A DNA stretch of 64,000 nt from a virus. A program made the position numbers and the translations under genes. The stretch lies in IMG/VR virus record IMGVR_UViG_3300017963_000014, positions 1 through 64,000 of that record; one strand, written 5' to 3'. A model generated the notes under the pieces. That model saw only the letters and a program-made list of their open reading frames with translations. It searched no databases and had not been told where the DNA came from. Shown here one piece after another: positions 4,645-19,399 of the stretch; position 1 is the stretch's first letter, and each line of letters begins with the position of its first letter.

Positions 4645-7512
4645 CTACCCCGCTCTATCCCGGATGCGCTTCGCCCGCGGAGCGCTACGGAGCTCCTCGA
4701 GGTCGGCCTCGAGGAGGATATCGCCCCTGTTCTCCCGGATCCGCGCGACCGCCTTCGAGACCCGCTTCGGGTCCGCGAGCCAGGTCCGGTAGCGGTCGAC
4801 GAGCTTCCGCCGACGAGCGCGACCCTTGATGAGCCACTTCGACCAGTCGATCACGGGGAAGCAGACCTCGAGGATCCGCTGCGAGGCGGGGAAGATCACG
4901 CGGTCCCAGTAGTACTCGGCGTCGTACGCGATCCCTCCGGCGGCGTCCTCGAAGTCACCCCGCGTTACGCCGGAGAGGTTCGGCTTCGTCCCGGTTACGA
5001 CGTACTCGACCTTCATTCCGACGTAGTACTCCCGCCCGGTCTCCCGAATCTCGGCCGCGAGCTTGACGTGCAGCGGCGTCGTCTTGTACCTCTCCGGGTC
5101 CTTCGATATCCCCTTCCCGATCGAGACCTCGTCGACGGAGAGCTCGCCCTCGGCGCAGCGTCGGAACTCCGGCTCGACGACCCCGCGCTCGATCTCGTCG
5201 CCCGAGAGTCCCTCCGTAAGGATCGCGTCCAGGACCCGCTGCTGGAGGCGGCGAGTCATCCCGGAGCAGTCGCTCCGCATCACCTCGAGGCCCTTAACCT
5301 CGACGTGATCCGTCTTCCCCCCCTTGTGGAGGAGCATCCTCCCGGCGTACCGCTTCTTAACGACGAAGAAGATCCGGTCGTAGACGTCCTCGAACTCGAG
5401 TTCGACCCGATTCCAGTCGAGGTTGCAGTTGAAGCCCCGGAGCTCCTCGAGGTAGCGCTCCTGGCAGTACGCGACGAAGCGGTTCCCGGCGTCGAGTATC
5501 TCCTCGATTCGGGCATCCTCGGAGGGCCAGGTCTTACCGGTCGGCGCGAGCTGAACGAAGACCGAGTCGGTGTCACCGTAGAGAACCGCGAACCCGTTCT
5601 CCTTCGCGTACCGCTCCGTTAGGCGGATGAAGTACCGCCCGCTGAGCGTGATCGCCTCCGCGAGCTCGGTGTCGTAGTACCGGGAGCGGGCGTTACCCAT
5701 GTCGCCGTAGAAGCTCAGCCCGAGGCGCTTGAACGAGTACGCGAGCCGGTAGTAGAGGAGGTAAAGGTCGTCCTGCGTCGTCCCGACCTCCTCGAGCCGC
5801 TTCCCCTGAAGGTCCGTGTACTTCTTCCGCCGCTCGAGCGTCCGGACGAACATCTGCGAGATATACCCCTCGCGGTCCCTCCGGAAGGTCGCGCCGCCCT
5901 TCTCGAGCGTCCCCCCGCCCTCGGTCTCGACCTCGACGAGGGGGCAGCGACAGAGCGAGTCCGGTCCGTTCTCCCGGAGGAACGCCTCGCGATCCTCGAG
6001 CTTGACGATCGTCTCGGGCGAGATGTTAAACGCTCGAACCATCGACGGGTAGAGACTCTTGAAATCTAAAGCCGCCACGTTCTCGTGCATCCCGACGACG
6101 GGGGGGAATACGTAGGCGCCCTCGTACTTCTCGGGCTCGGCGGAGGACCAGTACCGGGTCCGGAAGTGCTCCCCCTCCTTGTACCCCTTCTTTAGGAGGA
6201 GCTGGTCGATCTTCGTCGAGATGTTCCAGTCGTTCGCGAAGCCGTTCGCGATCCGGCAGAAGATCTGCTCGATCGAGACGAACCCCGTAAACTCCTCGAG
6301 CTTCCGGAGAATCCTCGCGTCGTACCGGTTATACTCCTCTAACAATTCGGGCTCGTACCGGTAGAGGTTGATAAACTTCGGTACCACCCCCGGGCGACGC
6401 TCACGGAAGGTCGTACGCCAGTCGATCTTCTGCATCTTCAGGACGCGCTCCCCGATCGAGTCGAGGGCGTAGGAGACGGCGTCCGCGCCCGCCCGCGTAT
6501 AATGCCGCTTGAAGACCGGTAGCGGGTCGGCGAAGAGGTGGTACCGCCAGTCGATCCAGATCCGGTGCTTCCGGAAGCGGTAGAAGATAACGGGAAAGTC
6601 GAATCCGAAACCGTTCCACGCGGCGAGGACGTCGTAGCGCTCGACGCACTCTCGCTTAAAGCGAAGGAGCATCTCCCGCTCGGCGGCGTCCGTCTCCTCC
6701 TCGAGTCGAAGGAACCCCGCGTCCGAGGGGTCGGAGTCGAAGCGGTCGCCCTCCCAGGCGATCGAGAGTATCCGGTTCTGCTCCTTCCTCTCGAACCCCC
6801 CGACGGTATCGTCGGTCTCGATGTCGAGAAACCCCATCCGGTACCGAGCCTGGATTTTTAAATCTACGTCCGTCAGGAACCGCTGCTTCGGCGTTAGGTC
6901 CGCCTCGAGAGGCTCAAGACCCTTCCGACGACACCACTCGACCGCCTCGTGAACAGGCTCCCACCGGTCGCGATCTCGGGGGAAGCGGAGCGCGCCCGGT
7001 CGCTCGCCGAGGAAGTAGGGGGTCGCCCAGCTAGAGGCGCGGTCGGGGTCCCCGACGTTCCGGAAGATCCGCTTGTGATCGATCTTCGGAACCCTCCGCG
7101 AGACGTAGACCCGTACGAACCTCTCGGGGTAGAGCGCGTCGGGCTCGACCCGCCGGGCGTGCCGACGGCAGAGCCAGTCCCAGCTCTCGCTCGGGATCCT
7201 CTCGAACTCCTCCCGCCGGAGGAGGAAGTACCACTCGAAGGGGTGAACCTCCTTAACCCGCCTCCCCGTCGCGGGGTCGCGGCGGAGGAGGACGACGTCC
7301 TCGCCCTCGGACCAGCCGTGGTAGTACTCCTTATCGGAGAAAAAGAACCGCTGGTCCTTCATCTCCTCGAAGTCGGCCGCGCTCTCGAGGTCGACCTCGT
7401 CGCGCGAGTCCCGAACCTCCTTCGAGTCGATCTCCTGTACGTAGAACTTCCGCTTCTCCGCGCCCGCGCCGAAGTCCCCTGCGATCCCCTGAGTGTCGGC
7501 GTCCCCGATCAG
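4645..7512 (-). CDS. Family B DNA polymerase with 3'-5' exonuclease
   Basis: Counted from the ATG at 7362, the 905-residue core has Exo I FLDIETD (D180, E182), Exo II NGFGFDFP (near 250), Exo III YNRYDARIL (D348), Pol A DFKSLYPSM (D433), and Pol C YGDTDSVFV (D597, D599). Motif B reads KRLGLSFYG, where the usual asparagine of KxxxNSxYG is replaced. Length and motif spacing resemble T4/RB69 gp43. The start is uncertain. The ATG at 7773 would overlap the glycosylase gene by 265 bases, a GTG lies at 7593, and a CTG at 7510-7512 overlaps its TGA. I give the last as a working start, and 7362 is the first unambiguous ATG. Confidence 0.93.
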   Translation of the reverse strand: MIGDADTQGIAGDFGAGAEKRKFYVQEIDSKEVRDSRDEVDLESAADFEEMKDQRFFFSDKEYYHGWSEGEDVVLLRRDPATGRRVKEVHPFEWYFLLRREEFERIPSESWDWLCRRHARRVEPDALYPERFVRVYVSRRVPKIDHKRIFRNVGDPDRASSWATPYFLGERPGALRFPRDRDRWEPVHEAVEWCRRKGLEPLEADLTPKQRFLTDVDLKIQARYRMGFLDIETDDTVGGFERKEQNRILSIAWEGDRFDSDPSDAGFLRLEEETDAAEREMLLRFKRECVERYDVLAAWNGFGFDFPVIFYRFRKHRIWIDWRYHLFADPLPVFKRHYTRAGADAVSYALDSIGERVLKMQKIDWRTTFRERRPGVVPKFINLYRYEPELLEEYNRYDARILRKLEEFTGFVSIEQIFCRIANGFANDWNISTKIDQLLLKKGYKEGEHFRTRYWSSAEPEKYEGAYVFPPVVGMHENVAALDFKSLYPSMVRAFNISPETIVKLEDREAFLRENGPDSLCRCPLVEVETEGGGTLEKGGATFRRDREGYISQMFVRTLERRKKYTDLQGKRLEEVGTTQDDLYLLYYRLAYSFKRLGLSFYGDMGNARSRYYDTELAEAITLSGRYFIRLTERYAKENGFAVLYGDTDSVFVQLAPTGKTWPSEDARIEEILDAGNRFVAYCQERYLEELRGFNCNLDWNRVELEFEDVYDRIFFVVKKRYAGRMLLHKGGKTDHVEVKGLEVMRSDCSGMTRRLQQRVLDAILTEGLSGDEIERGVVEPEFRRCAEGELSVDEVSIGKGISKDPERYKTTPLHVKLAAEIRETGREYYVGMKVEYVVTGTKPNLSGVTRGDFEDAAGGIAYDAEYYWDRVIFPASQRILEVCFPVIDWSKWLIKGRARRRKLVDRYRTWLADPKRVSKAVARIRENRGDILLEADLEELRSAPRAKRIRDRAG

Positions 7513-8108
7513 GGACGAGCCGGTTCGGAACCCCTCCCCCGGGGGAGGAGCGCCCTCCGCCAGTTCTCGGCCTCCGTCTCGAGGCGGGTCCACTTCCGGA
7601 GGGTCGCGTTCGGGTGCCGGAGGAGCGTCGCCTCCGCCGTCGTCCCCTCGACCGTCCTCCGGAGCCCGAAGTCGCTTAACCCGAGGGCGACGCCCGCCGC
7701 CCTCCCGAGGACGAGGACCGTCCGGAGGTTCGGGAGTTCGAGTAGTTCCCTTCGAAGGTACCGTTCGGCGCACGTCTCAAGCTCCATTGGGGTCGGGGCG
7801 CGGTTCCCGGGGGTCGCGCACTTCAGGGCGTTCGTCGCGTAGCATCGCCCGAGGTCGAGACCCGAGCGGTCGGCGAGCTCGAGGAAGGCCCGGGTCGAAC
7901 CAGTTAAGAGTACGGGTTCCCCGCCCCGCCTCCGGGTCTCCGCGAGGAGGGGGAGGAGGAAGCAGCCCTCGACCCCGTCCACGGCCCGCCGCGAGGGGTT
8001 GATCCCGACGACCACGACCTCCGCGTCGTCGGGTCCGACGCCGACGCAGCGGGGGAGGCCGGAGGAACCGAGGGTACAGGCTCGGCAGGGGCGGGGGTCG
8101 CACCTCAT
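7509..8108 (-). CDS. Family-4-like uracil-DNA glycosylase (Fe-S) with altered motif A
   Basis: The 199-residue protein has the family 4 cysteine pattern: C8 and C11 at the N-terminus, then NALKC (C97) followed by PGNRAP and C113, which should hold a 4Fe-4S cluster. The HPN at 165-167 matches the usual HPS motif. Motif A is VGINPS (34-39) in place of GEAPG, so the acidic residue of canonical enzymes is absent. It may still excise uracil, or may act on another base. It is coupled by four bases to the upstream ThyA-like gene and lies directly before the polymerase, fitting uracil exclusion or base modification. Confidence 0.8.
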   Translation of the reverse strand: MRCDPRPCRACTLGSSGLPRCVGVGPDDAEVVVVGINPSRRAVDGVEGCFLLPLLAETRRRGGEPVLLTGSTRAFLELADRSGLDLGRCYATNALKCATPGNRAPTPMELETCAERYLRRELLELPNLRTVLVLGRAAGVALGLSDFGLRRTVEGTTAEATLLRHPNATLRKWTRLETEAENWRRALLPRGRGSEPARP

Positions 8109-8653
8109 CGTCCCCCGGTCTCGAGGTGCAGGCTCCCGACGAGGAGCGAGAGCCGCGTCCCCCCGAACCGGTCGGGTAGCCCGGAGACCGCCGCACCGGC
8201 GGCTGCGAGGTTCCCGAGGAGGTCGAGCGGGAGGAGCGGGGCGAGGCGCTCCGAGCGCATGTACGCGACGACCTCGAGGTAGGGGCGCCGGAGGAGCTGG
8301 ATCGCGGTCGGGCAGGCGGGCGGGGGGAGGACCGATACGATCCGACGCGAGCTCGGCTCCTCCCTCCCGATACGCGCCCTGAGATTCCCCGCGTGCCGGA
8401 CGTAGTCCGAAGCCTCCGTCCGGAAGCGCTCCGCGAACCCGACCCCGGGCTCGAGGAGGTCGAGGGCACGTAGGATCGACGGGAGGTCCTCGAAGTCTAG
8501 GACCCGCGGGACGATGTACCTAAACTCGACCCCGCAGTTCTCGACGTAAGTACGCCCATCTACGCAGACGGACTTCCCCGAGGCCCGAAGCTCGACCTCC
8601 TTCCCCCCCGCGAGGACGAGGAGGTCGCGAGCGAGGTCGAAGTTAGTAATCAT
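8105..8653 (-). CDS. ThyA-family nucleotide (hydroxy)methyltransferase-like protein
   Basis: The 182-residue protein shows the C-terminal pattern of thymidylate synthase and nucleotide hydroxymethylases: a candidate catalytic cysteine in PPACPTAIQLLRR (C114), MRSERLAPLLPLDLLGNL (132-149) matching MRSND...GLPYD, and GSLHLE (173-178). The residue equivalent to E. coli ThyA Asn177 appears to be Asp144. In dCMP hydroxymethylase an aspartate at this position favours cytosine. At 182 residues it is shorter than bacterial ThyA (264). Since a ThyX is also present, I infer that it makes a modified pyrimidine nucleotide, but a reduced thymidylate synthase is possible. Confidence 0.65.
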   Translation of the reverse strand: MITNFDLARDLLVLAGGKEVELRASGKSVCVDGRTYVENCGVEFRYIVPRVLDFEDLPSILRALDLLEPGVGFAERFRTEASDYVRHAGNLRARIGREEPSSRRIVSVLPPPACPTAIQLLRRPYLEVVAYMRSERLAPLLPLDLLGNLAAAGAAVSGLPDRFGGTRLSLLVGSLHLETGGR

Positions 8654-9657
8654 CGATTACGCCCCCGACCCTCGGCGAGCTTCTCGGCGTTCCCCCACTC
8701 GTGTGTCGCCGGGGGATCCCCCCGCTCGAGCGCCTTGAGTAACCCGAAGTATTCCCGACGAATCTCCCGCTCGAGGTCGACCTCGGGAAGATCGAGCCGC
8801 TCGCGAACCGCCGCGACCTCCTCGAGGTCGTGTACGAAGTCCCCGAGGTAATCGAGGTCGGGTCGGTAGACCGGGGAGATCGGGACGTCGGAGACGAAGC
8901 GGACGATATCGACGATCTGTCCGTAAGGAAGCCAGCGACCGGAGGCGGCGGGGACTCGACCGGAGAGCCGGACCTCGACCGCGCGGCGGACGAGGAGCGA
9001 TATCCAGGAGTGCGGCGTAACCTCCTTAACGTTCGCGGGGCTAAGGGTGATAAAGGGCTCCCGCTCGTAGAGTCCGGCGGCGCACTTCAGGCAGTCGGCG
9101 ACGCAGGAGTCGCCGTCGCGGATCCCGCCGAAGCCAAACGAGGGGTAGACCTGCAGGAGGAGCTCCGGTTCCCGGGCGAAGGCGTCGACCGCGAAGAGCC
9201 GCCCGGCGAGCTTCGTCAGACCGTAGCGAGTCCGGGGGTTCGCGGGGGTTCGAGACATCGAGATCGGCTTCGCGAGTCCGTAGTCGTCGGGCGAGAGCTC
9301 GGAGGCGGTCGCGAGGAAGACCGTGTAGATCCTCCGCTCCGCTAGAATCCGCGCGAGATCGCGGGGAGCGGCGGCGTTGCAACTCCAGGTCTCCTCCGCG
9401 AGAGTCTCGCAGCGGGTCGTCCCGACGATCGCCCCGGAGTGAACGAAGACGTCCGGCTTCGGGTCGAGGGCGGCTAGCCACTCGAGGTAGCCCTCGCAGC
9501 GGAAGTCCGGCTCGAACTCGCCGGTCGAGGGACTACGCCAGAGTGCGAATAGACGACGATCGGTCGGAGGCTCGAGGCGCTCCCAGCCGAGGGAGGAGAA
9601 CTCGCGGTCGATCTCGCTACCTAGCATCCCGCTCGTACCGGTTACGACGTACCTCAT
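8650..9657 (-). CDS. NAD(P)-dependent epimerase/reductase (extended SDR, RmlD-like)
   Basis: The 335-residue protein begins with RYVVTGTSGMLGSE, a Rossmann TGxxGxxG motif (6-13) of the RmlD type. It has a TAS strand (117-119) and the catalytic YGLTK (145-149). The C-terminal third should form the substrate lobe. Such enzymes reduce, epimerise or dehydrate nucleotide sugars. Its genes on both sides are for pyrimidine nucleotides and it overlaps each by four bases, so it may build or alter a group attached to a DNA base. A role in host surface sugars is the alternative. The substrate cannot be read from the sequence. Confidence 0.8.
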   Translation of the reverse strand: MRYVVTGTSGMLGSEIDREFSSLGWERLEPPTDRRLFALWRSPSTGEFEPDFRCEGYLEWLAALDPKPDVFVHSGAIVGTTRCETLAEETWSCNAAAPRDLARILAERRIYTVFLATASELSPDDYGLAKPISMSRTPANPRTRYGLTKLAGRLFAVDAFAREPELLLQVYPSFGFGGIRDGDSCVADCLKCAAGLYEREPFITLSPANVKEVTPHSWISLLVRRAVEVRLSGRVPAASGRWLPYGQIVDIVRFVSDVPISPVYRPDLDYLGDFVHDLEEVAAVRERLDLPEVDLEREIRREYFGLLKALERGDPPATHEWGNAEKLAEGRGRNR

Positions 9658-10142
9658 CTTCGGAAACCCTCCTCCCCGTTAACGTAGACGACGTCGACTA
9701 CACCGCCGACCCAGGCGAAGACCTCGTCGAACGCGAGAAACTCGGCGTTAAGTCGCCCGTATTCGATAACCTCCCCCCGTCGCTCGATCCGGTTCCGCGC
9801 GGTCTCGAGCGAACTCGTAACGCGGTAGATCTGCTCGACCTCCTCGAGCTGCTTCGCCCGCGCGGCCGGGTTCGCTAGAAACGCCGGGATCGGTCGCTCG
9901 AAGAGCTTGGCGAAGACGAGGGTCGAGACCCAGCCGCGGTCGGCGACGAGGTCGACCCGGGGCGCGAGCTGCTCGAGTAACGAGGCGTGCGCTACGTACC
10001 CCCCGATCCGCGTCTCCTCCGAGTCGAGGCGGAGCCGAACCTTCGCGAGGTCCTCGACGTACGGGATCCCGAGCCGCCGCGCGAGGAGGCGGGCGAACGT
10101 CGTCTTTCCGACCCCGTTCGGACCCTCGACGAGGTGAAGCAT
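9654..10142 (-). CDS. P-loop nucleotide or nucleoside kinase (thymidylate-kinase-like)
   Basis: The 162-residue protein opens with LHLVEGPNGVGKTTFARLLA (Walker A at 7-15) and has VADRGWVSTLVF (D68, R69), the DR motif of thymidylate and deoxynucleoside kinases, followed by a helical lid region with paired arginines. It is shorter than bacterial Tmk (about 210). In phages with hypermodified thymidine, a P-loop kinase phosphorylates 5-hydroxymethyl-dU in DNA, and this gene's neighbours would suit that. A plain dNMP kinase is equally possible. It overlaps the epimerase gene by four bases and ThyX by one base. Confidence 0.75.
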   Translation of the reverse strand: MLHLVEGPNGVGKTTFARLLARRLGIPYVEDLAKVRLRLDSEETRIGGYVAHASLLEQLAPRVDLVADRGWVSTLVFAKLFERPIPAFLANPAARAKQLEEVEQIYRVTSSLETARNRIERRGEVIEYGRLNAEFLAFDEVFAWVGGVVDVVYVNGEEGFRR

Positions 10143-11242
10143 CAGAGCGCCCTCGGCGCGACCAAGTTCCCGGAGGCTCCTCGGGTAAATCCCGCGAACT
10201 GAGCCTCGTACTCGTTCCGCTCTACGATACTCTCCGGGGTATACCCGAGGAGGAAGCGGTCGCGGGTCGTGAGTCGGAAGTCCTCGGGTCGGTCCTCGCC
10301 CGCGGTCGGGATCCGGATCCCGAGCTGCGCCGCGATCGTCTCGCGGTCGGAACAGCTCTCGTTGAACTCCGCGTACTCGTAGTCGAGCTCGGGGTTCCCC
10401 GGGGCGCTTCGGACCGGGTTTCGACCGCAGCTACGGAAGAGGCAGCCGAAGGCCTCCGAGATCGCGTGAGCCCGGTGGTAACAGCAGGCGCCTACGAAGT
10501 CGCAGCGTGGGCGGAGATACGCGGCGAGGAGCGGGAAGGCGTCGGACTTCGCGAGGCGGTCGCGGAGGAGCCAGGCGACGGCGACGGTGTCCTCCGCCTC
10601 GGAGAAGGTCATCCGACGGGCGCAGAGGTTCTTAAGCGCCGCGTAGTTAACGGAGCAGACGAAGCGGTGAACGACCGAGATCGGGAGCGCCGTCCTCGCC
10701 TCCTGCCAGCTCCCGCGCCCGATCTCGACGATCCTCCGGTACACGAACTTCGCCTCCCTCGCGAGGGCTACGAGGTCCGAGAGTTTACCCGCGCTCCGGA
10801 ACGTCGCCTCGTGGAAGCGAAACGCGATGTCTAGGTGGTTGTTATCGCGGGTCCCCATCGACGCCGCGACGAACCCGAGGCGGGCGCGAACGATCTGGTC
10901 GAACGCCCACCTCGAGAGATTCTCGACCGAGAACGTAAACTTCGGCGCCTCGAGCGCGAGCGGTAGCGCCTGCCCCGCGAGAACCGCCCGAACGACCGCC
11001 TCCCGCGACTCGGGCGCGGCGTCCTCCCAGCGGTCGAGGGAGGAGGAGCTCCAAGTCCCCCAGGTCGCGGTCGCCATGCAGTACATCGCCTTATACGGGT
11101 TCACCGGTCCGTCGAGGAGGTCGACGCGAATCCCCTCGACCCCGCGGTAGAAGCGGGTCTCGAACGGCGGGGCGGAGGAGGGGGCGGTCCCCATCAGTTC
11201 GCGGAGGCGGGCTAGTTCGGCGACGCGGTTCTCGGTACTCAT
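10142..11242 (-). CDS. thyX: ThyX-like flavin-dependent thymidylate synthase
   Basis: I place the start at the ATG 11242 because GGGAGGAAGAAGAG precedes it. A longer frame to 11509 would be low-complexity arginine and lies over the previous gene. The 366-residue protein has SVENLSRWAFDQIV (105-118) followed by RARLGFVAASMGTR (119-132), which fits the ThyX signature RHRxxSxxxxSxR with changes, and a later SVNYAALKNLCARR. ThyX makes dTMP from dUMP with FAD and folate. It is longer than usual (about 230-250), with a 90-residue N-terminal extension and a C-terminal extension containing DRETIAAQLGIRI. The altered motif leaves room for a changed substrate. Confidence 0.75.
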   Translation of the reverse strand: MSTENRVAELARLRELMGTAPSSAPPFETRFYRGVEGIRVDLLDGPVNPYKAMYCMATATWGTWSSSSLDRWEDAAPESREAVVRAVLAGQALPLALEAPKFTFSVENLSRWAFDQIVRARLGFVAASMGTRDNNHLDIAFRFHEATFRSAGKLSDLVALAREAKFVYRRIVEIGRGSWQEARTALPISVVHRFVCSVNYAALKNLCARRMTFSEAEDTVAVAWLLRDRLAKSDAFPLLAAYLRPRCDFVGACCYHRAHAISEAFGCLFRSCGRNPVRSAPGNPELDYEYAEFNESCSDRETIAAQLGIRIPTAGEDRPEDFRLTTRDRFLLGYTPESIVERNEYEAQFAGFTRGASGNLVAPRAL

Positions 11243-12216
11243 CTCTTCTTCCTCCCTTCGGCTAACTCGAGGACCACCGCGAGCGCCTCGCGCGGCCCGG
11301 GGACGCGGACGGCGCCGACGAGCTCTACCCCGGCGTTCGCCTCGCCCTCTACGAGGACGACCGGGACGCCGGCGGCGAGGACCTCGCGCGCGACCGCGGG
11401 GTCGTCCTCGACGACCGCGACGGTCCCGGGGAAGTCCCGGAGGATCCGCCGGTGTTTCTCCCGGTCGAAGAGGACGGCGTCCGCGCGGAGGGCGGAGCGG
11501 TTGAGCCACTCGAGCGTATCGGCGTAGATCCGGGATACCCTCCAGTAGGGGCGAGCGGAGAGGACGACCGCGGTTAGACCGGCGGCGCGGAGCCCGTCTA
11601 AGAGCTCCCGCGCCCCCTCCCGAACCCCCTGCTCACGCTTCGCCCCGCTCTCGCGGTAGCGGTCCTTTAAGTTCTGGTACCCGAGCGCCCCGAGCTCCCG
11701 TCGGAGCGCGGCGGTCGAGGAGAACACGAACTCGCCGGGAACCTCCCAGTCCTCGACGTCGAGGCGGGCCCAGTCAAGGAAGCAGCGGGGGTAGTCGTTA
11801 AGGACGCCGTCTAGGTCGACGGCGACGACCGGGTCCTCGGGGGAGAGCGCGCGGAGGCGGGCCTCCATCGCGTAGCGGTACTCGACGACCTCGCTCTTCC
11901 GCTCGAACTCCTCGAGGATCTCCCCGGGGGAGAACCCCCAGACGTTCGCGAGCCCGAGGAGGAACTTAAGGCAGTCGACCCACTCCTCGAGGACGTTCCC
12001 GCGGACGACCGGAGTAGTCCGCCGGTGGTGCATCTTCCAGGAGGTCTCGCCGAGTAGCTCGTGAAGCTCCCCCTCGAGGTGTAGGACGAAGTCCTTCGAC
12101 CACGCGACGCGCTCCGCCGGGGATAGCCGCGCGATCTCGTAGCCGAGGTCCGAGAAGAACCGCTCGTTGAACCGCCTCTGCCGCGCGAGGATCCCCTCGA
12201 GGGAGGTAGCCTTCAC
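11239..12216 (-). CDS. Fusion of all-alpha dUTPase and HAD-family nucleotidase
   Basis: I place the start at the GTG 12216, whose GTGA overlaps the stop of the previous gene. Residues 35-120 look like the dimeric all-alpha dUTPase/MazG-like fold: HLEGELHELLGETSWK (46-61), EEWVDCLKFLLGL (77-89), and a helix with K and R near the end. Residues 129-320 are a HAD phosphatase with DLDGVLND (134-141) like 5'(3')-deoxyribonucleotidases. The first domain would turn dUTP into dUMP. The second would dephosphorylate a deoxynucleotide. Joining them in one chain suggests a channelled clearance or pool-shaping step next to ThyX and ThyA-like enzymes. Confidence 0.8.
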   Translation of the reverse strand: MKATSLEGILARQRRFNERFFSDLGYEIARLSPAERVAWSKDFVLHLEGELHELLGETSWKMHHRRTTPVVRGNVLEEWVDCLKFLLGLANVWGFSPGEILEEFERKSEVVEYRYAMEARLRALSPEDPVVAVDLDGVLNDYPRCFLDWARLDVEDWEVPGEFVFSSTAALRRELGALGYQNLKDRYRESGAKREQGVREGARELLDGLRAAGLTAVVLSARPYWRVSRIYADTLEWLNRSALRADAVLFDREKHRRILRDFPGTVAVVEDDPAVAREVLAAGVPVVLVEGEANAGVELVGAVRVPGPREALAVVLELAEGRKKR

Positions 12217-13136
12217 GAGAGAACCCCCGCGACGTCGTGTAACCGTATCCGGTGGTCCCACCTAGCGAACCTCCCGACGTGCCGGACGAGCCCCGCGTAC
12301 TCGACCTCCGACCGCGGCTCCCCCCGAACCTGGAGGCGGAGCGGCCCGACGAAGTTCGTATCGAAGACGTCCTCGCAGAACCCCGGCGCGAGGACCTCCG
12401 CGGGGTCGCGGTTAAACTCGTAGACGAACCCCTCCCCCTCCGGGAGGAAGGTGACGCGATCGAAGGGGACGCGCGGGTTAGAGACGTAGAGGTAGCGGAG
12501 ACCGGCGGAGGCGGCGTCCCGGACGGGGTCGGCCCAGGCGCGGGCGGCCCCGAGGAACCACTTCGGGCCGGCGTCCCAGGTCCGCTCGAGCTTAGCCGGC
12601 GTTAGCGAGTCGAAGACGGGCGCGGGGAGCGTGTTGACGACCTCCGAGACCGGCAACTTACTAACCCCGTCGAGCTCGACGTCTACCCGTCGCTGAAGTA
12701 TCCAGGGCGCGATGGACGTGACGCGCGCACGGAGTAGCTCGGAACGGACCGTTAGCGCGCGCTCGAGCGCCCGCGTAAGCTCCTCTACCGAGGTACGGAA
12801 GCAGCGGAGGACGCCGGGGGTACCGGAGGAGACCGCGGATCTCGGCGCCCGGCTAGGGTCCCGTCCGCTCCGCCGGAGGTACTCCCGCCGCTCGAGCGGC
12901 GTCGGGTCGGAAGTAACACCGGAGTCGGTCCAGAACCCGAAGCGGACCTCCTCGACCTCGCTCGATAGCCCGAGGTCCTCGAGGACGCGCCCGAGCGCGA
13001 GGGACTCCCAGAGGTAGGAGGGGGCGAGTCGTCGGAGGAGGACGGAACCGCCGAAGATCTCGCCAACGCAGGGGACGCGGAGGAGGTACGCCGCGAGGAG
13101 GCCGACGGGTCCGGCGCCGAGGACGAGTCGACTCAT
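12213..13136 (-). CDS. FAD-dependent oxidoreductase or lyase
   Basis: The 307-residue protein starts SRLVLGAGPVGLLAAYLL, a dinucleotide-binding GxGxxG motif (7-12). The second half has VVNTLPAPVFDSL, as in amine-oxidase and UDP-galactopyranose-mutase-like FAD proteins, and a C-terminal GLVRHVGRFARWDHRIRLHD, resembling the active-site helix start of mutase-like enzymes. The substrate is not evident. FAD enzymes occur in known thymidine hypermodification clusters, and the flanking genes are nucleotide enzymes, so a base-modification role is a fair inference. It overlaps its neighbours by four bases on both sides. Confidence 0.7.
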   Translation of the reverse strand: MSRLVLGAGPVGLLAAYLLRVPCVGEIFGGSVLLRRLAPSYLWESLALGRVLEDLGLSSEVEEVRFGFWTDSGVTSDPTPLERREYLRRSGRDPSRAPRSAVSSGTPGVLRCFRTSVEELTRALERALTVRSELLRARVTSIAPWILQRRVDVELDGVSKLPVSEVVNTLPAPVFDSLTPAKLERTWDAGPKWFLGAARAWADPVRDAASAGLRYLYVSNPRVPFDRVTFLPEGEGFVYEFNRDPAEVLAPGFCEDVFDTNFVGPLRLQVRGEPRSEVEYAGLVRHVGRFARWDHRIRLHDVAGVLS

Positions 13137-13885
13137 CGGCCGCCTCCACCGTAAGCCTCGAAGACCCTGCGCGCCAACTCGAGCGCGGTCTTCTGGAGGT
13201 CCCCGACGTACACCCAGTTCGTCCTCCCGAAGTGCCGCTTCCGTCGCTCCTCCCTATCTAGATGGAGGAGCCCGGGAACCTTCTCCCGCTCGAAGAAGTC
13301 GTCGTCGACGTTAAACTGAAGGTAGAGCCCGCGGAACTTAACCGCGAGCCGACGTACGCCCTCGGGGTCGAAGAACGCGACGTACCGCGGGTTCTCACGA
13401 GGCTTCCAGCCGTCGGGGAGATCCTCCTTAAGGCGCCGAATTATCTCCTTAGCCTCGATCCCCCCGAGGTCACCGTCGCGCTTCCGCTCGCGCCTCCTCC
13501 TCTCGGCCTCCTCGACCGCGGCCCGGAGCGAGTCCGCGTCCCTCCCCCGGGTCGAGACCCCGAGGTTCCGCGCGCGGGAGCGGAGCTCCTCGAGCGAGAG
13601 GGCGGGCTCGCCCTCGTCGTCGCCGAGGACGGCGCCGCAGGCCCAGCAGCGGGGGGAGGTAGCGTTTATCGGGGAGTTACAGCGCCCGCAGGAGTACGAG
13701 AGGTCCTCCCCCCGGGCGCGGAGCGCCTCGAGGACCTCCGCGTACGCGGACTTCAGCGTCTTCGCCCCGACCTCTAGCCCCTCGAACTCCCGGGCGTTCC
13801 GCCGGAGGGTCGGGAGGGCGAGGTACCTCCAGCGCGGGCCCTCGAGCTCCGGGGGGATCGACCCCGTTCCCTTCGCCTTCTTCAT
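13133..13885 (-). CDS. Zinc-ribbon and SAP-like domain protein, function unknown
   Basis: The 250-residue protein has a four-cysteine ribbon (C66, C69, C80, C83), then LSLEELRSRARNLGVSTRG (97-115), which fits a SAP DNA-binding helix pair, and a basic linker (127-137). The last 100 residues form an alpha/beta region ending in a helix. It therefore probably binds DNA or RNA. The start ATG follows GGAGG by four bases. It lies first in the nucleotide-enzyme run and overlaps the FAD gene by four bases, so it could be the DNA-contact part of a base-modification pathway, or an independent regulator. Confidence 0.65.
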   Translation of the reverse strand: MKKAKGTGSIPPELEGPRWRYLALPTLRRNAREFEGLEVGAKTLKSAYAEVLEALRARGEDLSYSCGRCNSPINATSPRCWACGAVLGDDEGEPALSLEELRSRARNLGVSTRGRDADSLRAAVEEAERRRRERKRDGDLGGIEAKEIIRRLKEDLPDGWKPRENPRYVAFFDPEGVRRLAVKFRGLYLQFNVDDDFFEREKVPGLLHLDREERRKRHFGRTNWVYVGDLQKTALELARRVFEAYGGGGR

Positions 13886-13897
13886 CTCGCCTCCTAG

Positions 13898-14515
13898 CTA
13901 GGCTCTATCTAGGAATGTACCCGGGGCGAACGCCCGGCTCGCTAGCTCCCCGAGGAGTAGCTCGACCGGGGGCGCCCGCTCCTCGTCGAGTAGCGCGCGC
14001 CGGAGGAGGACGAGCGCCTCGCCCCGGAGCCGCTCGCCCGCGCGCCGGAGCGCGAGGTCGAGGAGGAGCCGGTCCTCTACCCCGCGGTCGGCGCCGAGCC
14101 GGCGGTCGAGGTCCGCGGGGTCGTCGAGGCAGGGCTCGAGGGAGATCGACTTCGAGAACGTCCGCCGGACGGCGAGGCGGGCGGACTCCTCGCAGAAGTG
14201 CGGGAGCTCGACGAGCTCGACCGGTCCCCTTACGCGGTGCCGCTCCCTCCCGTGCCTCCGGATCGCCGCGCGCTCTAGGAAGGTCCGGCCACAGGGGCAG
14301 AGGTAGACGTAGCGGCGGGCGGCGCGCGAGAGCGCGAGTAGCCCCTCGTTAACGGCGTCGTCGACCTCCGCGAGGACGTTCGCCGAGCCGAAGGAGCGGC
14401 GGGCGGATACGCCGCGGGCGAGGAGCCAGGGTCGGTAGAGGGCGGCGACCGGCGAGAAGTTCCGGTCGGTCGGGTCGGAACGGTAGCGAAGCAGGGCGCG
14501 TTCGGGCTCCTCCAC
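13898..14515 (-). CDS. Sigma-factor-like protein with an inserted C2H2-like finger
   Basis: The start is a GTG (14513-14515) seven bases after AAGGAG. Residues 20-70 read like sigma region 2: VAALYRPWLLARGV followed by EVDDAVNEGLLALSRAARRYVY. A CPCGRTFLERAAIRRHGRERH stretch (C73, C75, H88, H93) resembles a zinc finger inserted at the end of that region. The last 60 residues are helical but lack a clear region 4. I infer a phage sigma or transcription factor, possibly for late genes. A near-consensus promoter lies directly upstream. The assignment is by pattern only. Confidence 0.5.
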   Translation of the reverse strand: MEEPERALLRYRSDPTDRNFSPVAALYRPWLLARGVSARRSFGSANVLAEVDDAVNEGLLALSRAARRYVYLCPCGRTFLERAAIRRHGRERHRVRGPVELVELPHFCEESARLAVRRTFSKSISLEPCLDDPADLDRRLGADRGVEDRLLLDLALRRAGERLRGEALVLLRRALLDEERAPPVELLLGELASRAFAPGTFLDRA

Positions 14516-14562
14516 GGGGGGTCTCCTTCGGTATTTTGTTCTTTCGTCGACGGCGAGGCCGG

Positions 14563-14592
14563 ACTATACGCCCGCGCCTTTCCGCCTGTAAA
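14563..14592 (-). promoter_or_regulatory. Sigma-70-like promoter for the sigma-like gene
   Basis: On the minus strand TTTACA (14587-14592) and TATAGT (14563-14568) are 18 bases apart, each one mismatch from the -35 and -10 consensus. Transcription would begin about 40 bases before the GTG of the sigma-like gene. The same spacing and similar boxes occur at 30434-30463. Confidence 0.6.
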
Positions 14593-14602
14593 GTACTATC
14601 TC

Positions 14603-15352
14603 CTAACTCTCGTCGCCCCCTACGCTTTCCCCTACCCCGAGGCTCGCGGCGGTGTTCAGGACCGAGCGGACGGAGGAGGCGTACCAGCGGGCGCCGGCCT
14701 TCGGGCACTCGCCCGCGTCGTTCAGCTCGGCGGCGATCCGGGAGTACGAGCCGCCGGCCTCGCGGAGCGCGCGGATCCGCTCGAGGAGCGCGGTCTCCGC
14801 GGGGTTCGGAACTAGGCGCTCGCCCTCGCGGTCGAAGCCGAAGGGGGTCCGACCGTAGACGCGGCGGGTTCGGCGACAGCGGGCGGTCGCCTCGCGGCAG
14901 CGGGCGGAGATCATCTCGCGCTCCATCTCCGCGAGGGCGGCGAGGATCGACATCGCGAACCGGCCGTGAGGGGTCGAGCCGTCCATCTGCTCGCGGACCG
15001 AGACGAACCCCCGCCCCGCGTCCCGGAGCCCCGAGACGACCGAGAGGAAGTCGAGCGTCGAGCGCGAGAGCCGGTCGATCGAGTAGACGATCAGCGCGTC
15101 GCCCTCGGCCTCGACCCGCTCGAGCGCCTCCCGGAGCGCCGGCCGCTCGAGCGTCTTCCCCGAGAGCCCGGCGTCGACGAGGACGTCGACGAGCTCGCCG
15201 TCGACGAGCTCGACGTAGGCGCGGCACTTCTCCTCCTGCGCCCCGAGCGAGACGCCCCCGCGGGCCTGCTCCTCTGTACTCACACGCAAGTACGCGTAAT
15301 ATTTAACTTTTCCCTTCGGAGCGATCGTCTTTACCCTCGGGCTTCGCTTCAT
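14603..15352 (-). CDS. Serine site-specific recombinase (resolvase/invertase family)
   Basis: The 249-residue protein has the N-terminal resolvase domain: YAYLRVSTEEQ with catalytic S25, a helix with GAQEEKCRAYV, LSGKTLERPAL, and DALIVYSIDRLSRSTLDF. It continues into PHGRFAMSILAALAEMEREMI, the long helix E. A short recombinase-like region (YGRTPFGFDREG, then AELNDAGECPKAGARWYASSVRSVLN) follows and supplies a helix-turn-helix. It is much shorter than large serine integrases (about 450-550). It may resolve, invert or integrate DNA; no attachment site was found. Its promoter is the 37-bp element at 15377-15413. Confidence 0.88.
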   Translation of the reverse strand: MKRSPRVKTIAPKGKVKYYAYLRVSTEEQARGGVSLGAQEEKCRAYVELVDGELVDVLVDAGLSGKTLERPALREALERVEAEGDALIVYSIDRLSRSTLDFLSVVSGLRDAGRGFVSVREQMDGSTPHGRFAMSILAALAEMEREMISARCREATARCRRTRRVYGRTPFGFDREGERLVPNPAETALLERIRALREAGGSYSRIAAELNDAGECPKAGARWYASSVRSVLNTAASLGVGESVGGDES

Positions 15353-15376
15353 CTTGATCCTCCGTCTCTACTTTAC

Positions 15377-15413
15377 ATCTTATCAGATAGAAAGTATCTG
15401 TCTAGGGGTAAAA
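15377..15413 (-). promoter_or_regulatory. Promoter with palindromic operator, copy 1
   Basis: This 37-bp stretch is identical to 17047-17083. On the minus strand it contains TAGACA (15399-15404) and TAAGAT (15377-15382), 16 bases apart, which fit -35 and -10 boxes. The spacer is filled by a 6-bp inverted repeat with a 5-base gap, CAGATA/TATCTG (15384-15400). The palindrome lies between and partly within the boxes, as expected of an operator. Transcription would reach the recombinase, whose ATG has GGAGG upstream. The regulator that would bind is unknown. Confidence 0.6.
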
Positions 15414-15456
15414 GGAAGGGGGCGAAAGTTTCTCCCACCCTCTCCCCCACCCGGCT

Positions 15457-16935
15457 CTAACTCTGAACGTAGACCAGCTCGCGGCGCGCGCGGGTAATCG
15501 CGACGTAGAGGCAGTTCGACTCCTGCCCGCCCTCCCGGAAGGAGTCCCAGAGCAGGAAGACCCGGTCGCGCTCGAGCCCCTTCGCGCGGTGCGCGGTCGA
15601 GAGCGTCACCCGCGAGTCGTCGTCGACGTCGGAGAAGAGCTCCTCGAGCCGCGCCCGGAGGTCCGGGAGGGTCGAGGCGACGTCGAGGAGCGCGCGGAGG
15701 CAGGCGCAGCGGTCGGAGAGGAGCTCGAAGAGCCCCTCGTCCGCGTCCTTCTCCTCGAGCTTCCGCCGCTCGTCCGCCTCGTACGACTCGAGCCAGCCGA
15801 CGAGGGCCGCGGTCGTCGCGACCCCGTCCCGCTCCTCCGCCTTCCGGAGGACCCCGAGGAGCTGCCCGAGGACGTCCCGGCCCTGGATAGCGGCGGGGAC
15901 CCGGTCCTTCAGGAGCTCGAGGCAGATCGGGAGCAGGGGCGCGTTCGAGCGGCAGAGGACGAAGTCGCCGGGCTCGACCTCCGCGAGGAGCTTCCCCACG
16001 GCGACCGCGCGGACGGTCCCCGGCTCGTTCCCCGCGGCCGCCTCGTAGTCCGGGACAATCCGCTTCGCCTCCGAGACGATCGAAGTCGCGCAGCGGTAGG
16101 TCCGGGGGAGCGGGAGCGTGACGGCGCCGAGGTCGCGGATCATCCTGGTCAGGAAGTCGGAGTCGGCGGCGCGCCAGCCGTAGATCGCCTGCCGGTCGTC
16201 CCCGACCGCGACGAGCCGCCCGCCGGCCTTCACGGAGTTCCGCGCGAGCTCGAGCTGCGCGGGGTTCATGTCCTGCGCCTCGTCGACGACGACGAGGTCG
16301 TGCTTCCAGGGAGAGAGCCCGAAGAAGTGCGGGAACCAGAGCTGGTCGTCGAAGTCGACGCTCGAGCGGTCGTCGGCGGAGAGCTCCATCGCGCGGGAGG
16401 CGAGCCGCGCGAGCGCCGCGAGTTCGCCCGCCTCGTCCGCGACCGCGTAGCGGTTCGCGAGCTCCTCGATCCCGCGGAGGTCCTTCGGGTCCGTTAGCGT
16501 AATCTTCGCGAGCGTCGCGAGCCGCCGGACCTTCCCCTCGGGGGAGATCACCTCGAGCGCGACCGCGGGGAGCGCCACGCACGCCGCCTTCGCCGCCTTC
16601 TTCCCCTTCTCGGGGTCGACCTCGACGCCCTTCCCCCAGGCCTTCCGGACGGTCGCGAGGCCGACGGAGTTCAGGGTCTTCGCGGAGGCGGTCCGCCAGT
16701 CGAGGCCGGCGGCGCCGATCTTGTTCTGGAGGTCCTTCGCGTTCTTCACGTTGAACGCGCAGGTAAGCGTCCGGTTCCGGGGGTTCCGCCGGGCGTAGCG
16801 GATCACGGCCTCGACCATCGTCGTCGTCTTCCCCGTCCCCGCGCGCGCGAGGACGACGAGGTCGCGCCCGCCCTCGTGGATCCGCTCGACCGCGTCGAAG
16901 ATCGCCTCCTGGTACTCGCTCCAGTTCATCGTCAT
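15457..16935 (-). CDS. UvrD/Rep-like superfamily 1 DNA helicase
   Basis: The protein has SF1A motifs: a Q-like helix WSEYQEAIFDAV, Walker A LARAGTGKTTT, motif II VVVDEAQDMNPAQ, motif III GDDRQAIYGWRAAD, and near the C-terminus STAHRAKGLERDRVFLLW and NCLYVAITRARRELVYV. It should unwind DNA 3' to 5' in replication or repair. I place the start at the ATG 16935 because GGAAAGGAGC lies eight bases before it, giving 492 residues. The frame is also open to an ATG at 17040, which would add 35 residues. That ATG would sit at the predicted transcription start, so a leaderless longer form is possible. Confidence 0.9.
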   Translation of the reverse strand: MTMNWSEYQEAIFDAVERIHEGGRDLVVLARAGTGKTTTMVEAVIRYARRNPRNRTLTCAFNVKNAKDLQNKIGAAGLDWRTASAKTLNSVGLATVRKAWGKGVEVDPEKGKKAAKAACVALPAVALEVISPEGKVRRLATLAKITLTDPKDLRGIEELANRYAVADEAGELAALARLASRAMELSADDRSSVDFDDQLWFPHFFGLSPWKHDLVVVDEAQDMNPAQLELARNSVKAGGRLVAVGDDRQAIYGWRAADSDFLTRMIRDLGAVTLPLPRTYRCATSIVSEAKRIVPDYEAAAGNEPGTVRAVAVGKLLAEVEPGDFVLCRSNAPLLPICLELLKDRVPAAIQGRDVLGQLLGVLRKAEERDGVATTAALVGWLESYEADERRKLEEKDADEGLFELLSDRCACLRALLDVASTLPDLRARLEELFSDVDDDSRVTLSTAHRAKGLERDRVFLLWDSFREGGQESNCLYVAITRARRELVYVQS

Positions 16936-17122: not shown

Positions 17123-17716
17123 CTAGCCGTAGACGCGGCGAAGCGCGGCACGGTCGCGGGCGGAGAGCCGGCCCGAGCGCTGCTCGGAGGCGACGGGGAA
17201 CATCACGGAGCCGCGCTCCCCGTCGTCGTCGAGCCCGAGCGCGTGCCCGAGCTCGTGGAGGACGACGCGCTCGAGGAGCGGCGTCCCCGGCGCGATCGAG
17301 ACCGTCGCCGAGAGGATCCGGCCGGTCCGGAGGTCGTACCGGTGCTCCGTCGTACCGCCCGCCCCGAGCCCGGGGTCCCGCGGACGGACGTAGACGAGTG
17401 CGGCGGTCGCGCCGACCGGCTCGCGGTCGAGCCGCCAATCTAGGGGAGGGGAGAGCGCCTCGCGCCCGACGGCGTCGTTTAGCTCCGCGCGCGCCGACTC
17501 GAGCGCGGGGTAGACCTCGCCCGGTAGGTCGGGCGAGACGAAGAGGTCGAGGGGGAGGAACGCGCGGTCCCAGCGGAGCTCGACGCCGCCGCGCCGGAGG
17601 AACCCGGGGTCGCCCGGGCGGCGAACGAGGGCGTAGACGAGCCCGGCGAGGGCGGCGAGGAGGATCGCCGCGCCGGCGGCGGTCGTCCAGGGGTTCGCGG
17701 CGAGGAAGGCTAGCAC
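17123..17716 (-). CDS. Membrane-anchored zinc metalloprotease (matrixin/snapalysin-like)
   Basis: The 197-residue protein has one membrane segment (about 11-32) followed by RR, so the rest probably faces outside the cytoplasm. The zinc motif is HELGHALGLDD (H154, E155, H158, D164) with a Met-turn SVMF (M172). The third metal ligand would be aspartate, not the histidine of matrixins, as in snapalysins (family M7). Such proteases are rare in phages. It could cleave host envelope or surface proteins, aid lysis or act on a competing phage. It overlaps the small helix-turn-helix gene by seven bases. Confidence 0.75.
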   Translation of the reverse strand: MLAFLAANPWTTAAGAAILLAALAGLVYALVRRPGDPGFLRRGGVELRWDRAFLPLDLFVSPDLPGEVYPALESARAELNDAVGREALSPPLDWRLDREPVGATAALVYVRPRDPGLGAGGTTEHRYDLRTGRILSATVSIAPGTPLLERVVLHELGHALGLDDDGERGSVMFPVASEQRSGRLSARDRAALRRVYG

Positions 17717-17965: not shown

Positions 17966-19132
17966 CTAGGCCCGCCTACGGGCGCCCCGGAGCCGGAGAC
18001 GGGCGCGGGGGCGCTCGAGCTCTCCCGGGGCGCGGAGGGCGGCTAGGAGCGCCTCCTCCGGCGCGTCCCCGGGGTCGGTCCCGCGGGGCATCGGCCGGAA
18101 CTCGGCCCGGGTCGAGGCCCCGAGGGCGCCGCGGACGGACTCGAAGAGGGTAGCGCCGCCGGCGTCGCCGTCCGCTAGGTGGATGACGCCCGGCGCCCCC
18201 CGGATCCTCGCGGCCTGCCGCGGGTAGAGCCGCGCCCCGAGGACCGCGACGACGTTCCCGAAGGGGACGTCCGAGACCCCGGGGTTCCGGAGGAGGAGCG
18301 CGCGGACCCGCTCGGCGTCGAGGATCCCCTCGACGAGCGCGACCGGGCGGTCGAGGTCGAGGGGGTCGGGGGCCCAGAGGAGGCCGGCGTCCCGCGGTCC
18401 GGCGACGCCGGGGCAGTAGCGGCCCTTCTCGCGGGAGGGGACGCGGAAGATCGAGCGGACGAACCAGTTCGCGGGCTCGCCGTCCTCGCCCGCGATAGGA
18501 AAGATAATTCCGGGTGCGGTTCTCTTTAGGGTTCGGCCGAAGCGGTCGCTAGCTCGGAGGCTCCGGACGGCGCGGACCCCGAGCTCGAGCGCCCGCGCGA
18601 GCGGGAGCCCGCGACGCTCGGCGAACTCCCGGAACTCCGGGGGCGCGTCCGCGAGCGGGGCGGAGGGGGGCCAGGCGAGGGGGAGGAACTCCGGCCTCGC
18701 GAGGACCGCCTCGCGCCGGCGGAGGACCGCCTCGCCCGCGCGGTCGGCGTCGATCGCCTCCTCGTCGAGGTACTCCCGGCGGAGGAACCGGGCGGCGTCC
18801 CGCCGCTCCTCGGAAGTCGGGGGGCGGTCCCAGGCGTCCGAGCGGACGCGGGCGACGAGGTCGAGGAAGTCGAGCCCGCGGAGCCCGGCCTCGCCGGGGT
18901 GGCTCCAGCAGTTGAAGCGCCCGAGGAGCGAGCCCCCGTCCCGCGCCGGGACGTCCTCGACGCAGACGTGGAAGCTCGGGTTCGCGTCGACGTGCGCGGG
19001 GTCGGGGCACGGGCAGTAGGCGTCCGACCCGACGCGATCGACGACCTCGAGCCCGAGGTCCTCGAGGACCTCCTCGAGGTCGAGCCGCCGGAGGAGGCGC
19101 TGCGTCCGCTCGAGTTCCCGCTTCCGGCCCAC
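17966..19132 (-). CDS. DnaG-type DNA primase
   Basis: The 388-residue protein has a zinc-binding region with C40, C42, H47, C75 and H78 (CHC2-like, with unusual spacing and an inserted loop). A Toprim domain follows, with PVALVEGILDAERVRAL and, later, HLADGDAGGATLFE (D321, D323). It ends in a basic tail. It should make RNA primers for the DnaB-type helicase encoded nearby. A standard DnaG is about 580 residues, so the helicase-interaction domain is short or missing, as is common in phage primases. Confidence 0.88.
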   Translation of the reverse strand: MGRKRELERTQRLLRRLDLEEVLEDLGLEVVDRVGSDAYCPCPDPAHVDANPSFHVCVEDVPARDGGSLLGRFNCWSHPGEAGLRGLDFLDLVARVRSDAWDRPPTSEERRDAARFLRREYLDEEAIDADRAGEAVLRRREAVLARPEFLPLAWPPSAPLADAPPEFREFAERRGLPLARALELGVRAVRSLRASDRFGRTLKRTAPGIIFPIAGEDGEPANWFVRSIFRVPSREKGRYCPGVAGPRDAGLLWAPDPLDLDRPVALVEGILDAERVRALLLRNPGVSDVPFGNVVAVLGARLYPRQAARIRGAPGVIHLADGDAGGATLFESVRGALGASTRAEFRPMPRGTDPGDAPEEALLAALRAPGELERPRARLRLRGARRRA

Positions 19133-19135
19133 GGG

Positions 19136-19399
19136 CTAGGGGTCCTCGCTCGGACCGAGCCCCCGGCGGGCGCGGAGCTTAAGCTCGTCACGAAAAGCAG
19201 ATAGAACCGTAGACGCGCTCCGCTCAGATACCCTCTTAGCCCGCTCGAAGTAGGGCCCCGGGTCGATCCGGAGGGAGTGAAACTCGGCGACGATAGAATC
19301 GAACGCTAAACGCCGCTTATCGAGACTGGAGAGGCAGACGGGCATCGCGTTTAAGCAGTCGCGGAGAATTCCTAGATTTAAAGATCCGATTTTCCCCAT
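19136..19399 (-). CDS. Hypothetical protein
   Basis: This 87-residue protein lies between primase and helicase genes and overlaps the helicase stop by one base. Its codon use is more A+T-rich than the neighbours (LNLGILRDCLNAMPVCLSSLD). No family is recognised. It may be a primase-helicase linker or a recent addition. Confidence 0.6.
   Translation of the reverse strand: MGKIGSLNLGILRDCLNAMPVCLSSLDKRRLAFDSIVAEFHSLRIDPGPYFERAKRVSERSASTVLSAFRDELKLRARRGLGPSEDP

Follow-up and report, generated by a model that had tools for sequence, protein, structure and literature searches.

A recurrent gene module of uncultured phages with a divergent ThyX, probably serving a C5-modified deoxypyrimidine nucleotide

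The subject of this analysis is a run of eight genes at positions 7509-13885 of a 64,000-nucleotide stretch of viral DNA, here called the window, which comprises bases 1-64000 of the 101,796-bp virus record IMGVR_UViG_3300017963_000014 (69% GC in the record, 65-73% along the window). The enzyme set encoded by this run is a genuine module that is common to some two dozen very different uncultured phages. We consider it fairly probable that it makes a C5-substituted deoxypyrimidine nucleotide, most likely of the deoxyuridine type, from dUMP at the free-nucleotide stage, and that the product is meant for phage DNA. If this is true, widespread uncultured phages make a modified DNA letter by a route that builds on ThyX and for which no complete precedent turned up; this would extend DNA chemistry, offer enzymes for modified nucleotides, and explain orphan phage genes. 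The gene set, its conservation, the gene fusions, the family assignments, and the residue changes described below are observations.

All eight open reading frames (ORFs) are present on the minus strand. A preliminary description made from the sequence had named their enzyme classes, and the ORFs, Pfam matches, profiles, and fold assignments agree with it. In the order of transcription, and followed downstream by the gene for a DNA polymerase B (PolB), the genes are:

13133..13885, minus strand: zinc-ribbon/SAP protein with CxxC pairs, a probable DNA-binding accessory, first gene of the overlapped run
12213..13136, minus strand: flavin adenine dinucleotide (FAD)-dependent enzyme with a predicted UDP-galactopyranose mutase (UGM)/amine oxidase/renalase fold (fold, profile), core module gene
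11239..12261, minus strand: all-alpha, MazG-type dUTPase with a fused HAD phosphatase that resembles NT5C deoxyribonucleotidase (PF08761, phrog_173, phrog_415)
10142..11242, minus strand: divergent ThyX with a Cys-rich C-terminal extension (PF02511, AlphaFold2 (AF2) fold), core module gene
9654..10142, minus strand: P-loop (deoxy)nucleotide kinase (AAA_33, phrog_761)
8650..9657, minus strand: extended short-chain dehydrogenase/reductase (SDR) of the RmlD/NDP-sugar epimerase family (PF01370, PF04321), recurrent accessory
8105..8653, minus strand: shortened thymidylate synthase (TS)-fold protein, apparent relative of T4 dCMP hydroxymethylase (HMase) (profile versus PDB)
7509..8108, minus strand: Fe-S type uracil-DNA glycosylase (UDG) homologue (PF03167, four Cys, motif A GINPS)
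4645..7773, minus strand: family B DNA polymerase (PF00136, E 4.3e-46), linked to the module, but not one of its enzymes

Overlaps of 1-4 nt, mostly of the ATGA type, join the zinc/SAP and FAD, dUTPase and ThyX, ThyX and kinase, kinase and SDR, SDR and ThyA-like, and ThyA-like and UDG genes. Since most neighbour pairs overlap in this way, the genes appear to form one operon and are probably translated together. The ThyX start is best placed at the ATG at 11242, because relatives and a purine-rich stretch upstream (GGAGG) favour it; the start at 11509 in the ORF table is too long. The true start of the dUTPase-HAD gene probably lies downstream of the listed GTG.

Relatives were collected from IMG/VR. 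With the ThyX-like protein as bait, the initial five relatives were of high GC and had almost the gene order of the window; as the ThyX alignments grew, contigs with 23-46% GC and different polymerases were added, and a separate search with an FAD profile retrieved further contigs at 20-27% identity. All are metagenomic contigs, and their sampling is partial, because they were found through conserved peptide patterns. Genes were tallied by profile (E below 1e-4) on 28 contigs (given L numbers), which gave 25 loci after merging those with FAD proteins at least 95% identical. The FAD gene is present in 24 of the 25 loci, and in these 24 it is always accompanied by the dUTPase and the kinase, in 23 by the HAD domain, and in 22 by the ThyX-like gene. 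The two FAD loci without the latter are contigs that end before its place; L032, L033, L035, and L038 end short of the ThyX position seen in close relatives. ThyX occurs alone only in L029, a 16-kb fragment. The FAD-bearing loci span 23-71% GC and PolA, PolB, or PolIII replicases, and the majority also have a short ThyA-like gene, an SDR gene, or both. Each FAD-profile contig with enough flank contains dUTPase/HAD, kinase, and ThyX-like genes, mostly also a ThyA-like gene, and nine have an SDR; among 14 records searched as a whole, the FAD gene was found in 13 and the ThyA-like gene in eight. In addition, members are fused, namely dUTPase to HAD in most phages, FAD to dUTPase in L044, and kinase to ThyA-like in L039. 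Chance is excluded, since the set recurs in phages unrelated to one another, and because FAD, dUTPase, kinase, and ThyX-like genes travel together and members are fused elsewhere, the set including the epimerase is a genuine module. Among the named phages of INPHARED no ThyX or FAD relative was found at the sensitivity used, save one 25% ThyX match in Moorella phage MTATph1, around whose ThyX no module genes are annotated. The GTDB genomes yielded no ThyX relative at the sensitivity used.

Several loci carry additional or substituted genes. Between kinase and ThyX, L041 encodes a radical SAM-SPASM protein (13793-14926) and an aldo/keto reductase (12324-13361) whose C-terminal tail is Fe-S-like; SAM methyltransferases are added in L018 and L019. 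At 12634-14939 of L004, a ParB-like gene, a small gene, and a PAPS-reductase/DUF3440 gene replace the ThyA-like and UDG genes. Inteins or intein-like inserts occur in the L019 ThyX (9989-11434, between RMKF and CEADATVAFAWL), the L005 PolB (about 14179-15362, at the GDS/DT motif), the L018 UDG gene (14446-16152), and the L019 PolIII alpha gene (5737-9960).

The ThyX-like protein matches PF02511 above the cut-off (E 8.3e-11, 42.4 bits), and its AF2 model (pLDDT 78.7, pTM 0.82) matches ThyX structures in Foldseek with E 1e-7; the polyoxin enzyme PolB is among the matches. Residues of 14 module ThyX proteins were mapped by alignment onto ThyX of T. maritima (Tm), a set that left out the more divergent L044 ThyX and the paired ThyX proteins of L036/L037/L040. 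The flavin/dUMP arginines R119/R121/R132/R210, equivalent to Tm R78, R80, R90, and R174, are kept. The positions of Tm H53, H79, S88, and Y91 are lost in 14/14 sequences: H53 is replaced mostly by Ala (also Ser, Glu, Thr), H79 by Ala, Thr, or Met, S88 by Gly, and Y91 by Asp. In the same alignment, ThyX of the module-less Moorella phage retains equivalents of all four. According to published structures of T. maritima ThyX, the stacking partner of the folate pteridine is H53, and Y91 is catalytic, its mutation lowering flavin oxidation 1000-fold (PMC11940539). The loss of H53 and Y91 therefore makes plain folate-dependent dTMP synthesis by the module ThyX doubtful. A redirection of the ThyX fold to modified nucleotides has precedent, because acid traps a ThyX reaction intermediate and yields hydroxymethyl-dUMP (PMC4913046), and because the ThyX paralogue PolB serves polyoxin nucleoside biosynthesis (PMC5954106). 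Four cysteines of the C-terminal extension (Cys247, Cys253, Cys272, Cys297), invariant wherever the sequence is complete, may perhaps form a metal or Fe-S site. L036 contains two adjoining ThyX-like genes (18078-18893 and 18859-19608), as do L037 and L040. Their motif loss is complementary, the first keeping GCRDNNKSD and the second RARVG and RRLMFCEEEF, and the pair looks like a split hetero-oligomeric ThyX.

The FAD protein, of about 300 aa, has no Pfam match. Its AF2 model (pLDDT 79, pTM 0.82) matches UGM/renalase with E about 3e-9 in Foldseek against the PDB, and amine oxidases too, and a profile of 10 FAD sequences lists UGM first, although weakly (E 0.006). Most FAD sequences have a GxGxxGL-type FAD-binding motif, and the arginine of the UGM motif PFYR is matched by F225/R227, with Arg227 being invariant. 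To judge from the model, the protein resembles UGM and not the FAD lyase gp47 of phage PaMx11, which is of the DAO family and to which it has no sequence similarity.

The remaining constant members point to the nucleotide pool. The dUTPase domain matches dUTPase_2 (PF08761, E 4.6e-6) and is joined to the HAD domain, whose homologue in L026 matches the NT5C 5'-deoxyribonucleotidase above the cut-off (E 1.7e-7). The kinase matches AAA_33 (E 3.8e-6) and the thymidylate kinases of phrog_761 (2.5e-10), and its best-scoring homologue, in L026, passes the Thymidylate_kin cut-off. This likeness to a dNMP (thymidylate) kinase suggests chemistry on free nucleotides and not on polymerised DNA. A dCMP deaminase gene was found in 9/9 records tested and lies at 87,875-88,669 in the genome of the window.

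These enzymes might simply supply thymidylate: dCMP deaminase, dUTPase, ThyX, and dTMP kinase would lead to dTTP, HAD would do housekeeping as a nucleotidase, and the SDR, FAD, and ThyA-like proteins would be either unrelated neighbours or regulators of that pathway. All four classic steps are indeed encoded in the analysed records, and no full-length ThyA was seen. However, wherever a locus is long enough, ThyX is accompanied by the FAD gene and the dUTPase/kinase genes, and a search with FAD by itself brings back the set; gene fusions connect FAD with dUTPase and the kinase with ThyA-like; the residues for folate-dependent methylation are lost in the module ThyX; and dTMP synthesis needs no FAD enzyme, SDR, or shortened ThyA. 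We regard a mere thymidylate supply as unlikely.

The ThyA-like protein of the window has by itself no Pfam match. A search of nine records with PF00303 gave a match in 2/9, restricted to the C-terminal half of the short protein, and no full-length ThyA. A profile of seven sequences retrieves T4 dCMP hydroxymethylase (1b49) from the PDB with E 1.2e-16, versus about 1e-8 for the first thymidylate synthases. The short protein aligns with T4 gp42 over its length, and the invariant residues are Cys146, Arg166, Ser167, His206, and Asp176 (L010 numbering); the window protein has the catalytic Cys114, the Arg-Ser pair, the His, and an Asp replacing TS Asn177. This invariant Asp sits at the position of the T4 gp42 Asp, where thymidylate synthases have Asn, and an Asp at that position sets dCMP rather than dUMP specificity. 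The module proteins are shorter (154-218 aa versus 246 aa), and in the alignment the folate-binding middle segment is shortened. By sequence, the ThyA-like protein would thus be a shortened relative of dCMP hydroxymethylase.

A modified cytosine would follow if this protein hydroxymethylated dCMP as in T4, the all-alpha enzyme removed dCTP, the kinase phosphorylated hydroxymethyl-dCMP, the FAD enzyme and SDR tailored the product, and ThyX made dTMP. In its favour, the PDB protein closest to the profile is T4 dCMP hydroxymethylase, whose E value lies eight orders of magnitude below those of the thymidylate synthases; the Asp is invariant, and T4 has a comparable set of precursor enzymes. Yet L004, L005, L006, and L024 lack the ThyA-like gene and keep ThyX, FAD, HAD, and kinase, so that it is optional in the module, and the constant, divergent member is ThyX. 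The protein is also shorter than gp42, with the middle segment lost, and no matching glycosyltransferases were found: of the two families searched, GT1 occurs in no record and GT2 in the 194-kb record only. A cytosine product as the purpose of the module seems rather improbable to us. DNA glycosylation was rejected as a candidate on the same search, which covered these two families, others being possible.

The SDR matches Epimerase (PF01370, E 3.2e-10) and RmlD (PF04321, E 3.4e-7) and has the YxxxK active site as YGLTK. It adjoins the module in the window clade (including L002 and L004), L018, L024, the L032-L040 group, and L043. Since it is found beside the module in many loci, it is a recurrent accessory and not a passer-by. 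The preliminary description had noted that an epimerase lies outside the known versions of thymidine hypermodification, so that the base may be new, and had suggested inspecting the neighbourhoods of SDR and FAD homologues. With FAD joined by dUTPase and kinase throughout and the SDR recurring beside the module, a new base is plausible. A second, short epimerase-like stretch lies outside the module at 94,385-94,498 in the genome of the window.

Two genes at the edges of the run stand further from the chemistry. The zinc-ribbon/SAP protein has a weak Pfam score below the cut-off (E 0.074) and a homologue beside the L041 FAD gene (E 2.3e-12 in a small set); it is probably an accessory DNA-binding protein, and a role as a tailoring enzyme was rejected as unsupported. 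The UDG (PF03167, E 2.7e-13, four Cys) has counterparts in other module phages that form one protein with the replicase, PolA in L024 and PolIII alpha in L017, L019, and L039. In the window clade it precedes PolB, whose position is kept in L002-L006. It belongs with the polymerase. Phage PaBG, not known to be modified, has a UDG-polymerase fusion too, so that this linkage is merely suggestive of modification and was rejected as proof of it. At 7509-7773 of the window, UDG and PolB, which are read in different frames, share up to 265 nt, and the PolB part of the overlap (PRVKRL) is kept even in L004, which is without UDG. Of the original view that the run is a base-modification cluster, the functional unit and the C5 chemistry on pyrimidine nucleotides stand, whereas the zinc/SAP protein is probably accessory and UDG goes with the polymerase.

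Further genes were noted in the surroundings. In the window clade, the gene immediately preceding the module (13898-14515 of the window) may encode a sigma-like protein into which a Cys/His finger is inserted; it weakly matches a gene beside the L041 module. A serine recombinase upstream (14603-15352) is kept across the window clade (about 60-74% identity), and a small protein whose C-terminus is of the matrixin (M10 metallopeptidase) type (17123-17716) is encoded near replication genes. A class II ribonucleotide reductase lies outside the module at 89,540-92,284 of the window's genome (L008 9540-12284).

For the proposed synthesis of a C5-substituted nucleotide, we infer the order of steps, the substrate of each tailoring enzyme, the structure of the product, and its entry into DNA as follows. 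The dUMP would come from the dUTPase domain and from the dCMP deaminase, whose gene lies outside the run, and the ThyX-like flavoenzyme would attach a carbon unit at C5 of dUMP by altered chemistry. This C5 substituent would be tailored by the UGM-like FAD enzyme and the HMase-like protein, joined by the SDR in phages that have it. Phosphorylation by the thymidylate-kinase-like enzyme would then yield the diphosphate. Competing ordinary nucleotides would be kept low by the dUTPase together with the HAD nucleotidase, the phage polymerase would incorporate the product into phage DNA, and the polymerase-linked UDG would remove residual uracil. ThyX and UGM folds are both known to make flavin N5-carbon adducts. 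It is conceivable, if distinctly unlikely, that two flavoenzymes, a ThyX off its usual folate pocket and the UGM-like enzyme with the SDR on a nucleotide-linked sugar, attach a carbon chain derived from a sugar to dUMP at C5 and thereby create an undescribed class of DNA base as a ready dNTP.

Several points weigh against a C5-modified deoxyuridine for phage DNA. The relatives are all metagenomic. The dUTPase, dCMP deaminase, kinase, and ThyX would fit an ordinary thymidylate supply as well. With PF00303 no full-length ThyA was found, and a second ThyX was looked for in the window's genome only, so that the module phages may depend on this ThyX for their dTMP. The HMase-like protein bears the Asp that is typical of dCMP and not of dUMP specificity, which leaves room for a cytosine product. 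The UGM assignment comes from the fold and from weak profile scores (E 0.006), and fusions of UDG to a polymerase are also seen in phages, such as PaBG, for which no modification is known.

The preliminary description had noted several enzyme classes shared with known thymidine hypermodification systems. In the known post-replicative 5-hydroxymethyl-deoxyuridine (5-hmdU) hypermodification of the M6, ViI, and PaMx11 type, the hydroxymethyl group on DNA is activated by a kinase, an amino acid is attached, and an FAD enzyme trims the product. M6 and PaMx11 share with the module phages a TS-fold enzyme, a P-loop kinase, an FAD protein, and a dCMP deaminase in the phage replication region. However, the amino acid:DNA transferase ADDT (PF18724) and the 5-hmdU DNA kinase helical domain HMUDK_hel (PF18723) are absent from 13/13 module records, whereas the same search finds both in M6 and PaMx11. 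Phmmer and profile comparisons with the tailoring enzymes of these two phages gave nothing beyond TS, deaminase, and a weak kinase signal. The FAD protein is unrelated to the DAO-type gp47, the kinase is thymidylate-kinase-like, ThyX takes the place of a full ThyA, and an SDR is present. The known hypermodification pathway was thus rejected, and a variant of it is very improbable. A free modified nucleotide or nucleoside kept out of DNA as an inhibitor or signal is hardly credible, for although polyoxin PolB turned up in the ThyX fold search, and SDR/FAD/radical SAM tailoring, usual in nucleoside antibiotics, would fit, the association with replicases, the UDG-polymerase fusions, the dUTPase, and the dCMP deaminase speak against it.

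The proposed route to a modified deoxyuridine nucleotide can be set beside the replacement of thymine at the level of the nucleotide pool in phage SPO1, which has long been known to carry 5-hydroxymethyluracil. Its polymerase carries a UDG domain (E 3.4e-22), and a stretch of its genome is annotated with dUMP hydroxymethylase, dCMP deaminase, and dUTPase. Common to SPO1 and the module phages are the dCMP deaminase, the dUTPase, UDG at the polymerase, and a nucleotidase-like HAD. SPO1 differs by its annotated ThyA-type dUMP hydroxymethylase, which a test did not find in the module, and by a trimeric dUTPase, and no set of ThyX-like, UGM-like, and SDR genes is annotated in the SPO1 stretches that were read. 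With canonical ThyX and polyoxin PolB, the module ThyX shares the fold and the flavin/nucleotide arginines, and differs by the four lost positions and the Cys-rich extension. Bacillus phage SP-15 contains the base 5-dihydroxypentyluracil, reported as nucleoside triphosphate, and encodes Thy1/ThyX proteins (gp9, gp130), an SDR-like protein (gp129) directly before gp130, kinase- and HAD-like proteins nearby (gp134/gp135), a UDG (gp100), and a dCMP deaminase (gp219). Profile searches of bases 1-194000 of SP-15 gave no significant FAD or ThyX match, gp130 included, and no convincing ThyA-like protein, by which SP-15 was rejected as a direct homologue. It is nevertheless a useful analogue of the module phages, and if the module makes the nucleotide proposed here, it would in turn provide a comparison case for SP-15-like phages, in which ThyX is present.

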